This document shows positions 3,958 through 7,231 of a stretch of 64,000 bases of DNA, one piece after another. Position 1 is the stretch's first letter. Each line of letters opens with the position of its first letter. The notes under the pieces were generated by a model. It searched no databases. It saw nothing but the letters and a program-made list of their open reading frames with translations, and had not been told where the DNA came from. Origin of the DNA: Procambarus clarkii (lineage: Eukaryota; Arthropoda; Malacostraca; Decapoda; Cambaridae); assembly GCF_040958095.1 (NCBI RefSeq), contig NC_091188.1, positions 37,573,875 through 37,637,874 on the forward strand, in the 5' to 3' direction. The position numbers were made by a program, and so were the translations under genes.

Positions 3958-4499
3958 TTGGCTGTTGTTCAGCAGCCAATTGATACACAACTATATTCTA
4001 CCCACTTCAAGACTCCGTACCAATATAGAAACATCAAGAGGAAGTATGGGCCAATAGGCCCTTTGCAGTTACTTCCATTCTTCCCTCTCATTTATCCAAT
4101 TTATACCCATTGTTCCGTGTTATGTCTTGTGTTGGTGAAATGTTTGTTCACCTCATCCAAAACTGTTGCAACATATTACCTCACCTAAATGCAAGTATAT
4201 AAGACAAGCTGTTCAATGTTAGCATTAAGTAAAAATCTGTTTAGTGTTTTCAGGTTACAGTTGTGTGTGTGTAAACTAAAGTCTTTGAAAATGTAATAAG
4301 TTATTATGAAACGCGTTCAAGCGTTGCGTCAGACTAGAAATAAAAATGAATTTTGGAGAATTGATTTTTCAATTACCATCGACAGTAAAAAGAAACATAA
4401 GAAATATTGAGAAAATTCGTGTTAGAATTATTAATCTTACTTTTTCGGTCATATTTAACAACATATGTTTACAAGAAAGACTGATACTAAATTTTACTA
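3958..4499 (+). mobile_element. PLE1 fragment: 3' end, pLTR-like region and restart of ORF
   Basis: The left end matches, out of frame, the last codons of the PLE1 endonuclease ORF. It then runs through the GGGCCAATAGGCC segment common to several PLE families here, the hammerhead-like fold at 4281-4334, and an ATG at 4346 that starts the PLE1 ORF ([17 protein letters not shown]...). After about 50 codons the sequence becomes (TA)n. This layout (end of one copy followed by the start of another) fits the pseudo-LTR arrangement known for Penelope elements. Confidence 0.85.
4281..4334 (+). ncRNA. Hammerhead-like fold, PLE1 copy a
   Basis: GTCT (4281-4284) pairs with AGAC (4331-4334) as stem I. 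TTGAAAA occupies the CUGANGA position and GAAAC follows. Stem II is weakened (GTAA with TTAT). Stem III is ACGC/GCGT around a loop. The cleavage-site nucleotide would be C. It is probably inactive because the core deviates from CUGANGA. Confidence 0.45.
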
Positions 4500-4755
4500 A
4501 TATATATATATATATATATATATATATATATATATATATATATATATATATATATATATATATATATATATATATATATACATATATATATATATATATA
4601 TATATATATATATATATATATATATATATATATATATATATATATATATATATATATATATATATATATACATATATATATATATATATATATATATATA
4701 TATATATATATATATATATATATATATATATATATATATATATATATATATATAT
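4500..4755. repeat. (TA)n tract
   Basis: 256 bp of TA dinucleotides with two isolated C interruptions (4581, 4671). It lies between two PLE1 3' ends that face each other. Confidence 0.99.
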
Positions 4756-5206
4756 TGGTAGCAGTCTTTCCTGTAGACATATATTATTAAATATGACCGA
4801 AAAAGTAAGATTAATAATTCTAACACGAATTTTCTCAATCTTTCGTACATTTCTTTTCACTGTTGGAGGTAAATCAAAAATCAATTCTCCAAAATTCATT
4901 TTTATTTCTAGTCTGACGCGACACGAGCGCGTTTCGTAAAACTTATTACATTTTCAAAGACTTTAGTTTACAAATACACAACTGAATAGAACTTACGCAT
5001 CTCCGATTTTATATCTACATTTGAGTGAGGTGGAAGGGGTGATGTGGCATTAATCAACACAAGACAGAACACGAGGTGGCATTAATAGGGTATTAATTTC
5101 ATCAACACAAGACAGAACAAGAGGTGACATTAATAGGGTATTAATTTCATCAACACAAGACAGAACACGAAACAATGGGTATTGAATAGAAGTGTTTGTA
5201 GAAAGC
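4756..5206 (-). mobile_element. PLE1 copy b, pLTR-like 3' region and ORF restart
   Basis: Reading leftward from the stop at 5207 the element passes the GACCAATAGGCT segment, tandem GACAGAAC-containing repeats (about 5050-5165), the hammerhead-like fold at 4911-4961, and a new ATG at 4899 ([17 protein letters not shown]...), then enters (TA)n. It mirrors copy c on the plus strand at 6884-7231. Confidence 0.88.
4911..4961 (-). ncRNA. Hammerhead-like fold, PLE1 copy b
   Basis: Minus strand: GTCT, TTGAAAA, T, stem II GTAA/TTAC, GAAAC, stem III ACGCG/CGCGT around a 9-nt loop, C, AGAC. All three stems are perfect. Only the C3 and G8 positions of the hammerhead core differ from consensus, and one extra U precedes stem II. 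Confidence 0.5.
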
Positions 5207-5838
5207 CTATTGGTCCATATTTCTTGATGCTTCTATATTGGAGCGGAGTCTTGAGGTGGGTAGAATATAGTTGTGCAATAATTGGCTGTTGATTGCTGGT
5301 GTTGACTTCTTGATGTGTAGTGCCTCGCAAACGTCAAGCCGCCTGCTATCGCTGTATCTATCGATGATTTCTGTGTTGTTTACTAGGATTTCTCTGGCGA
5401 TGGTTTGGTTGTGGGAAGAGATTATATGTTCCTTAATGGAGCCCTGTTGCTTATGCATCGTTAAACGCCTAGAAAGAGATGTTGTTGTCTTGCCTATATA
5501 CTGGGTTTTTTGGAGCTTACAGTCCCCAAGAGGGCATTTGAAGGCATAGACGACGTTAGTCTCTTTTAAAGCGTTCTGTTTTGTGTCTGGAGAGTTTCTC
5601 ATGAGTAGGCTGGCCGTTTTTCTGGTTTTATAGTAAATCGTCAGTTGTATCCTCTGATTTTTGTCTGTAGGGATAACGTTTCTATTAACAATATCTTTCA
5701 GGACCCTTTCCTCCGTTTTATGAGCTGTGGAAAAGAAGTTCCTGTAAAATAGTCTAATAGGGGGTACAGGTGTTGTGTTAGTTGTCTCTTCAGAGGTTGC
5801 ATGGCTTTTCACTTTCCTTCTTATGATGTCTTCGACGA
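5207..5838 (-). pseudogene. PLE1 copy b, GIY-YIG endonuclease part of ORF
   Basis: About 210 minus-strand residues from FVEDIIRRKVKSH to the stop at 5207. They contain the linker of the Penelope ORF and its C-terminal GIY-YIG nuclease: VVYAFKCP, KTQYIGKTTTSLSRRLTMH, then HIISSHNQT. The RT half is missing. Homology stops at about 5838, where copy c begins in the opposite direction, so this is one arm of an inverted pair. The protein is nearly identical to the end of copy c, so the pair is young or homogenised. Confidence 0.9.
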
Positions 5839-5854
5839 AAGTCGACTAAGTCAT

Positions 5855-6883
5855 GTCGACATGAACTTGAAACCGGCCATATAGTGCAGGTATGTTGACG
5901 ACATTTTTACACAGGTACCTGATGTCAGACATCTGCAGGAGCTGAAGGAGGCATTTGAGCAGAGTTCCGTGCTGCGTTTCACTTACGAGATGGAAAAGGA
6001 TGGGAAGCTGCCCTTTCTAGATGTAACAGTCATGGAAAAGGGCGGAGGTTTCCACACTGCAGTCTACACTAAGGAAACGAACATAGGAATGTGCCTAAAT
6101 GCCAACAGCGACTGCCCAGACAGGTACAAGAGGAGTGTTGTTAACGCATATGTCGACCGTGCTCTCAGCCACAGCTCAGAATGGAAGCAAGTCGACGAAG
6201 AACTCTGTAGGGTAAGGCAGGTCCTAGTCAACAACGGCTTCTCCAATGGTTTCGTCGAAGACATCATAAGAAGGAAAGTGAAAAGCCATGCAACCTCTGA
6301 AGAGACAACTAACACAACACCTATACGCCCTATTAGACTATTTTACAGGAATTTCTTTTCCACAGCTCATAAAACGGAGGAAAGGGTCCTGAAAGATATT
6401 GTTAATAGAAACGTTATCCCTACAGACAAAAATCAGAGGATACAACTGACGATTTACTATAAAACCAGAAAAACGGCCAGCCTACTCATGAGAAACTCTC
6501 CAGACACAAAACAGAACGCTTTAAAAGAGACTAACGTCGTCTATGCCTTCAAATGCCCTCTTGGGGACTGTAAGCTCCAAAAAACCCAGTATATAGGCAA
6601 GACAACAACATCTCTTTCTAGGCGTTTAACGATGCATAAGCAACAGGGCTCCATTAAGGAACATATAATCTCTTCCCACAACCAAACCATCGCCAGAGAA
6701 ATCCTAGTAAACAACACAGAAATCATCGATAGATACAGCGATAGCAGGCGGCTTGACGTTTGCGAGGCACTACACATCAAGAAGTCAACACCAGCAATCA
6801 ACAGCCAATTATTGCACAACTATATTCTACCCACCTCAAGACTCCGCTCCAATATAGAAGCATCAAGAAATATGGACCAATAG
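5855..6883 (+). pseudogene. PLE1 copy c, RT C-terminus plus GIY-YIG endonuclease
   Basis: The plus frame opens with KPAI, a stop at 5882-5884 where a Tyr codon is expected, and then CRYVDDIF, whose YVDD (5891-5902) is the RT catalytic motif. It continues through LPFLDVTVMEKGGGF and the RT thumb (CLNANSDCPDRYKRSVVNAY) to the GIY-YIG nuclease (VVYAFKCP...QYIGKTTTSLSRRLTMH) and stops at 6883. The N-terminal part of the Penelope ORF and the RT fingers are absent. Homology begins close to 5855, directly after the opposed copy b. Confidence 0.92.
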
Positions 6884-7231
6884 GCTTTCTACAATCACTT
6901 CTATTCAATACCCATTGTTTCGTGTTCTCTCTTGTGTTGATGAAATTAATACCTTATTAAATACCACCTCACCCCATCCACCTCACTCAAATGTAGATAT
7001 AAACAAATCGGAGATGTGTAAGTTCTATTCAGTTGTGTATGTTTAAACTAAAGTCTTTGAAAATGTAATAAGTTTTACGAAACGCGCTCAAGTGTCGCGT
7101 CAGACTAGAAATAAAAATGATTTTTGGAGAATTGATTTTTGAATTACCACCAACAGTGAAAAGAAATGTACGAAAGATTGAGAAAATTCGTGTTAGAATT
7201 ATTAATCTTACTTTTTCGGTCATATTTAATA
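6884..7231 (+). mobile_element. PLE1 copy c, pLTR-like 3' region and ORF restart
   Basis: It has the same order as copies a and b: GGACCAATAGGCTTTC, CCCATTGTTTCGTGTT, the hammerhead-like fold at 7053-7105, ATG at 7117, about 35 codons of PLE1 ORF start, then (TA)n. Confidence 0.88.
7053..7105 (+). ncRNA. Hammerhead-like fold, PLE1 copy c
   Basis: GTCT/AGAC stem I, GTAA/TTAC stem II, ACGCG/CGCGT stem III with loop CTCAAGTGT, cleavage-position C. The stems match copy b while the stem III loop differs. Confidence 0.5.

Follow-up and report, generated by a model that had tools for sequence, protein, structure and literature searches.

Type I hammerhead-like motifs with a U3-A8 core pair in Penelope-like elements of Procambarus clarkii

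A stretch of 64,000 nucleotides from the genome of Procambarus clarkii (RefSeq assembly GCF_040958095.1, contig NC_091188.1, positions 37,573,875 to 37,637,874 of the forward strand; hereafter the window, with positions counted from its first letter) was analysed for a recurrent motif in the pseudo-LTR (long terminal repeat) of Penelope-like elements (PLE). The motif is probably a type I hammerhead in which U3-A8 stands for the usual C3-G8 pair and one extra U precedes stem II, and with which tandem transcripts of the elements would cut themselves after GTC.

Hammerhead layout in three PLE families of the window

An earlier sequence-only reading had pointed out three stems at five PLE1 sites, with a core TTGAAAA instead of CUGANGA and an extra U before stem II. 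A descriptor search combined with an alignment of the 64-kb window confirmed both points, as the three stems were found at all five sites and TTGAAAA followed by T forms the core in every copy. The parts follow each other in the order stem I, core, stem II, GAA, stem III, U-C and stem I. The copy at 7052..7106 (the 7057 copy) reads 5' to 3' AGTCT TTGAAAA T GTAA-TAAGTT-TTAC GAA ACGCG-loop-CGCGT C AGACT, in which, judged by its sequence, no part of a type I hammerhead is missing. The putative hammerheads of the window are the following.

4280..4335, + strand: PLE1; stem I AGTCT/AGACT, U3-A8 core, extra U at 4292, stem II GTAATA/TATTAT (closing G-U), stem III ACGCG/TGCGT
4910..4962, - strand: PLE1; stem III loop 2 nt shorter
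7052..7106, + strand: PLE1; cut predicted from hammerhead rules after C7101 (between GTC and AGACT)
18827..18881, - strand: PLE1; descriptor site
48644..48691, - strand: PLE1-related; 73% identity to the 7057 copy, AAAA replaces GAAA (G12A)
17362..17398, + strand: PLE2; CAC TTGAGAA T GAACC-GGTTC GAA ACGT C GTG, minimal palindromic stem III
15113..15149, - strand: PLE2; relaxed descriptor
12357..12393, - strand: PLE2; relaxed descriptor
27012..27050, + strand: PLE3; CGAC TTGAGAA T GGTCC-GGACC GAA ACGT C GTCG
26954..26992, - strand: PLE3; head to head with the 27012 copy
30597..30635, + strand: PLE3; relaxed descriptor
40301..40339, + strand: PLE3; relaxed descriptor

The earlier list of five copies was incomplete, as seven more are present in two diverged families, PLE2 and PLE3. 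A relaxed descriptor that left residues 3 and 8 free gave 11 PLE sites (4 PLE1, 3 PLE2 and 4 PLE3), all of them U3-A8 with one extra U before stem II. The fifth PLE1 copy (48644), which carries A12, falls outside this descriptor and was obtained only in a separate descriptor scan. Twelve order-1 Markov shuffles of the window produced 0 or 1 relaxed-descriptor site each, so that chance does not explain the motif. No canonical CTGANGA or C3-G8 copy was detected in the window by strict or relaxed descriptors. Three further descriptor sites on the - strand, at 54684 and 54511 (relaxed) and at 50312 (other descriptor), were dropped as AT-rich repeat.

The families differ in stem II, which is GTAA/TTAC in PLE1, GAACC/GGTTC in PLE2 and GGTCC/GGACC in PLE3, and in stem III, a closed hairpin of 4-5 bp in PLE1 that is diminished to ACGT in PLE2 and PLE3. 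The window copies have the type I helix order I-II-III with stem I open. U4, G5, A6 and A9 are present in 12/12 window copies, a count which is independent only for the five aligned copies since the descriptors demanded these residues. Residues 3-8 are U-A in 12/12, and thus do not match the consensus letters C3 and G8, while C17 (residue 17 not G, cut site UH) is also present in 12/12. G12, A13 and A14 followed by A15.1-U16.1 were found in 11/12, the remaining copy being 48644..48691 with A12. This copy is probably decayed. Its G12A sits at a CpG of the other copies (TTACGAAAC to TTACAAAAC), which is the expected decay of a methylated site. The two head-to-head PLE3 motifs at 26954-27050 are joined by a short palindromic junction, an arrangement that recurs elsewhere (e.g. 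C1:6565647 and C1:6565698).

Identity to the 7057 copy is 94.7, 93.4, 90.9 and 73.3% for the other four PLE1 copies. The observation that loops differ and stems are mostly kept was reproduced in the five-copy alignment, where 12/16 columns are variable in loops II and III, 4/28 in the stems, 1/12 in the core and 17/66 in the flanks. Loops II and III are more variable than the flanks (P=0.0008); stems and core taken together are not significantly quieter than the flanks (5/40 vs 17/66, P=0.14). Of 74 stem cells, 98.6% are paired, and sliding the partners by 1-3 columns reduced this value to 28-52%.

The 3-8 pair and the extra U in the genome

Compared with C3 U4 G5 A6 N7 G8 A9, the PLE1 core carries C3U and G8A. 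TTGAAAA had been read as a degraded CUGANGA, which overlooks that C3U is compensated by G8A. According to the available sections of two papers, residues 3 and 8 pair with each other in the active hammerhead structure (PMC3088659, PMC2837043), and the two changes therefore amount to one pair swap, from C-G to U-A, and not to random decay. The first of these sources, in the part covered, also describes several natural hammerheads with U3-A8 as a covariation of C3-G8, and states that ribozymes of this kind are active in vitro (PMC3088659).

The second feature of the core is the single extra U between A9 and G10.1 of stem II, by which A9-U-G10.1 reads AUG. In PLE1 this AUG is directly followed by TAA. 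In PLE2 it opens an upstream open reading frame (ORF) of 33 codons (17371-17472, +), whose stop codon TGA and the main ORF's ATG share letters in ATGA. The in vitro activity of U3-A8 hammerheads reportedly goes back to a pair-exchange paper of Przybilski and Hammann from 2007.

Both features were then followed beyond the window in loci fetched from the genome (L001-L090). When neither residues 3 and 8 nor the extra base were fixed, the window and these loci gave 52 distinct contexts, with U-A in 36, C-G in 15 and U-U in 1, and with U as the extra base in 52/52; at least 4 pairs in stem II were required for this set, and patterns fixing these residues had been used to fetch 60 of the 90 loci. 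In L001-L060, where residues 3 and 8 were free and the motifs were not deduplicated, the combinations were U-A 44, C-G 19, C-A 1, U-U 1 and A-U 1.

Exact patterns were counted over the 4.03-Gb assembly, with backward patterns as controls. Six of the sixteen combinations of residues 3 and 8 in the GTC-type layout NTGANNATG-N(8-20)-GAAACGTC were distributed as follows.

U3-A8: 63,431 places (control 18)
C3-G8: 213 places (control 7)
C3-A8: 754 places (control 4)
U3-G8: 291 places (control 13)
G3-C8: 11 places (control 1)
A3-U8: 19 places (control 3)

The first four counts give an odds ratio of 62 for the association of residues 3 and 8, the copies not being independent. Independent double decay of U3-A8 copies would be expected to yield about 3.5 C3-G8 copies. 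In the PLE1 layout with residues 3, 7 and 8 free, 49,756 places were obtained with 0 control matches, and 49,354 of them (99.2%) are U3-A8. The variant core is thus dominant in about 113,000 exact-pattern places. Since the patterns demanded A-U-G after residue 8, the genome counts are no test of the extra U.

Several other observations were made in these searches. A head-to-tail PLE1 array with four hammerheads of the same orientation, about 2.76 kb apart, lies at G000:C1:11001970-11010294. Among the matches listed, the U3-G8 and C3-A8 places include recurring groups unlike hammerheads. Twelve U3-G8 matches within 0.43 Mb (G000:C1:1367103-1799919) are nearly one sequence, unlike the PLE hammerhead, and probably represent a local repeat. 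Matches on viral contigs were rejected as noise, as 0/240 of those listed combined at least 4 stem II pairs with at least 3 stem I pairs; at least 4 stem II pairs were present in 16/240, 12 of which are one recurring sequence.

Pairing between families and competing readings

Pairing between families was assessed with 44 distinct motifs (window and L001-L090) that were grouped in 6 clusters, pairing not being demanded. When one member was drawn at random per cluster, the mean number of paired cells in stems I and II was 35.5 of 42 (lowest draw 30), against 21.5 with shuffled partners (highest 33). Ten hand-picked families gave 69/71 paired cells (shuffle mean 41.4, max 54), and in these families both partners of pairs 2 to 4 of stem II differ from one family to another. 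The hand-picked families were chosen partly for folding, and the claim therefore rests on the six unpicked clusters. Stems I and II covary between families, and not within the five PLE1 copies.

The C3-G8 motifs were looked at in about 100 of the 213 places and in 30 loci. The PLE2-like and PLE3-like clusters contain one C3-G8 motif each. At least 4 stem II pairs were found in 40/40 U3-A8 motifs of the GTC type (L061-L090, some loci overlapping) and in 18/30 C3-G8 motifs (L031-L060); the other 12 may be due to decay or chance. A further C3-G8 family, PLE4, has 34-39% protein identity with PLE1 and PLE2, and the C3-G8 families share too few protein columns for a PLE family tree on which pair swaps could be counted.

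A number of results weigh against a hammerhead that works with a swapped pair. No pair out of 15 changed on both sides among the five PLE1 copies, and all 500 shuffles equalled the observed values, so that these copies alone show descent and fold and not a constraint on pairing. The covariation check suggested with the sequence-only reading was thus negative within PLE1, and it was the comparison between families in which pairing was kept. Stem I is weak in C3-G8 motifs, with at least 3 stem I and at least 4 stem II pairs in 5/30 of them vs 33/40 of the U3-A8 motifs. Copy counts reflect a few master elements, and 63,431 vs 213 are therefore not independent events. Most single 3-8 mismatches among the matches listed look like decay of U3-A8 copies, and a recurring C3-A8 group with unpaired stem II (12 of about 100 places among the matches listed) contradicts the pairing rule. 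Members of this group (e.g. G000:C1:38057227), mispaired both at 3-8 and in stem II, mostly carry GAACCTCATTGAAGC between core and GAAAC.

Structure prediction and database comparison add to these points. RNAfold returned all three stems in the expected register for 3/5 PLE1 copies (4957, 18876 and 48687); in the 4285 copy stems I and II were kept and stem III was shifted. Different folds were preferred by the 7057 copy and by each of the 3 PLE2 copies, and in the 4 PLE3 copies no stem other than I and II was formed; with this mixed outcome, thermodynamics alone is insufficient for the hammerhead case. No Rfam hammerhead was obtained in the window at gathering scores, nor at E values up to 10 in one PLE1 and one PLE2 stretch, a negative result that says little because two C3-G8 PLE copies were missed too.

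The lack of covariation among the window copies is what would be seen if the motif were an inactive descendant of a hammerhead that has lost cleavage and was copied along with amplifying elements, its stems persisting by shared descent and youth. Such an explanation is considered unlikely. It would agree with U3-A8 and the extra U as departures from the usual consensus and with the near identity of the PLE1 copies, since 27 of 29 other fetched copies (the best-scoring of 1120 candidates) are mutually identical over 131 nt, with a one-site difference from the window copy, and are thus too young to reveal constraint. Cleavage by the hammerhead of PAc, the Poseidon element of Anolis, is moreover described as dispensable for insertion in vitro in the sections available (PMC11167929), which also counts against a working ribozyme. 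Loss of function should, however, let the 3-8 pair drift, whereas PLE1 to PLE3, at 27-54% protein identity, all keep U3-A8, G5, A6, A9, GAA, A15.1-U16.1, C17 and paired stems. Dominance of one variant core in three diverged PLE families and at about 113,000 exact-pattern places speaks against the suggestion of a structural relic, which is not favoured. From the alternative suggestion, a divergent catalytic RNA, the hammerhead layout is well supported, and catalysis itself is predicted.

The AUG at A9-U-G10.1 in 52/52 contexts and the upstream ORF of PLE2 that overlaps the main ATG would also suit another role, either as a structured leader or template-recognition hairpin of the PLE reverse transcriptase, or as a short upstream ORF tuning translation, the likeness to hammerheads being inherited. 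This is very unlikely, as the immediate TAA in PLE1 leaves no conserved peptide and translation gives no reason for the conservation of GAAA, stem III and GTC or for the matched change at 3-8. A canonical core in a shifted register is hardly credible. It would take the C that precedes TTGAGAA in PLE2 and PLE3 as C3, giving CU(U)GA-GA with G8 kept and no swap, and CTTGAGA indeed differs from CTGANGA by one inserted U and a missing N7. That C, however, pairs in stem I with the first base after the cut (the G that follows GTC), and PLE1 reads CTTTGAAAA, in which no G is available as G8 while the rest of the layout is common.

The motifs are thus most likely working or recently working hammerheads, predicted to cut tandem PLE transcripts after GTC. 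A more specific proposal, that one lineage of PLE hammerheads fixed U3-A8 together with an obligatory A9-U-G10.1, appears unlikely at present; here the AUG would couple cleavage to ribosome initiation, cleavage and translation being mutually exclusive, and the weaker U-A pair would tune the ribozyme's dependence on the protein of the element.

Element context and relation to known hammerheads

Sequence encoding PLE reverse transcriptase or endonuclease was found upstream of the motifs of PLE1, PLE2 and PLE3, and also upstream of some with C3-G8 (e.g. L042, L057 and L039). The motif accordingly lies in the pseudo-LTR of elements with reverse transcriptase and GIY-YIG, the GIY-YIG score of PLE1 being below the Pfam cut-off. 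The coding parts in the window are listed below.

5885..6883, + strand: PLE1 ORF 3' part, GIY-YIG endonuclease, directly upstream of the 7052 motif; Pfam PF01541 E=0.00087, 20 bits, below the cut-off of 22.6
5207..5845, - strand: PLE1 C-terminal ORF part, upstream of the 4910 motif; inverted repeat of 6250-6960, 99%
15536..17206, + strand: PLE2 reverse transcriptase ORF, upstream of the 17362 motif; Pfam RVT_1 E=9.1e-9
13164..14444, - strand: PLE2 reverse transcriptase ORF piece; Pfam RVT_1 E=2.9e-8

Protein identity is about 54% between PLE1 and PLE2 (longest shared stretch) and 27-33% between PLE3 and both. No PLE protein match was obtained at 35/60 loci (L031-L090), which could be truncated or solo copies. 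PLE content has been reported for decapods, as far as the sections available show (PMC10454600). Within the start of the ORF, about 110-225 nt beyond the hammerhead, the PLE1 and PLE2 copies meet long (TA)n tracts (4500-4755, 7232-7339, 12132, 17623-17723, 18663-18718 and 48367-48488). Such arrays fit the AT-rich target sites given for PAc in the same partial source (PMC11167929).

Two other features of the window were observed. Two oppositely oriented arrays of a 260-bp unit (21260-22847 and 22849-24198) form a very large perfect inverted repeat, with arms of 1350 nt that are 100% complementary and 9 nt apart. An open frame of 517 codons at 2400-3953 (-) reads like the reverse transcriptase of a non-LTR retrotransposon.

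The motif has the same orientation as the element and sits between the endonuclease-coding end of one unit and the beginning of the ORF in the following one. In the proposed mechanism, tandem PLE transcripts would cut themselves after the C of GTC into unit-length RNAs. PLE1, with its closed stem III hairpin of 4-5 bp, could be cleaved as a monomer; cleavage as dimers would be more likely for PLE2 and PLE3, the stem III of which is only the palindrome ACGT. The protein of the element may be needed, as reported for PAc, the hammerhead of which is inactive without protein and cleavage by which is not needed for insertion in vitro, according to the parts of the paper covered (PMC11167929). By analogy, a protein-assisted ribozyme is plausible in PLE1 to PLE3.

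PLE-associated minimal type I hammerheads are reportedly the subject of Lunse, Weinberg and Breaker 2017 and of Cervera and de la Pena 2014, and monomer-competent hammerheads are known from fungal and protist PLEs. The available passages of two reviews describe PLE hammerheads as minimal, with reduced stem III (PMC7761336, PMC6155905). PLE2 and PLE3 fit this description with their ACGT, unlike PLE1 with its closed stem III, and all three families have U3-A8 in place of C3-G8. The natural U3-A8 hammerheads of Perreault et al. 2011 display the same compensatory double change C3U/G8A; they are 'several' in the part of that paper covered (PMC3088659), whereas the three PLE families described here, which have tens of thousands of copies, carry U3-A8 almost exclusively. 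In PAc, as described in the sections available, single changes of C3 or G8 abolish cleavage and the double change partly restores it. PAc resembles PLE1 and PLE2 in having a hammerhead at the junction of pseudo-LTR and ORF with a start codon at the beginning of stem II, but it keeps C3-G8 and its ORF starts in the hammerhead, while the main ORF of PLE1 and PLE2 starts further downstream (PMC11167929, same sections).

An extra residue between A9 and stem II is shared with the hammerhead of Chrysanthemum chlorotic mottle viroid, in which it is an A, as opposed to U in every PLE copy examined. A literature search on hammerheads with C3U and G8A, or on 'C3-G8', returned no paper in the literature covered. 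No joint description of near-exclusive U3-A8 at this scale, A9-U-G and a closed PLE1 stem III was found in the literature covered, to which Lunse 2017 and Cervera 2014 did not belong. PLE hammerheads and natural U3-A8 cores are already published; the scale, the near-exclusive U3-A8, A9-U-G and the closed PLE1 stem III are less usual.

Well over 100,000 motifs of this genome would escape a search in which CUGANGA is fixed, and none of those compared with Rfam was recognized. Since an AUG is part of the core, it can be tested directly whether PLE hammerheads serve cleavage or translation. With nearly all PLE hammerheads of this layout being U3-A8, the 4-Gb genome amounts to a natural experiment, on a large scale, with a pair that has long been held to be near-invariant C-G.

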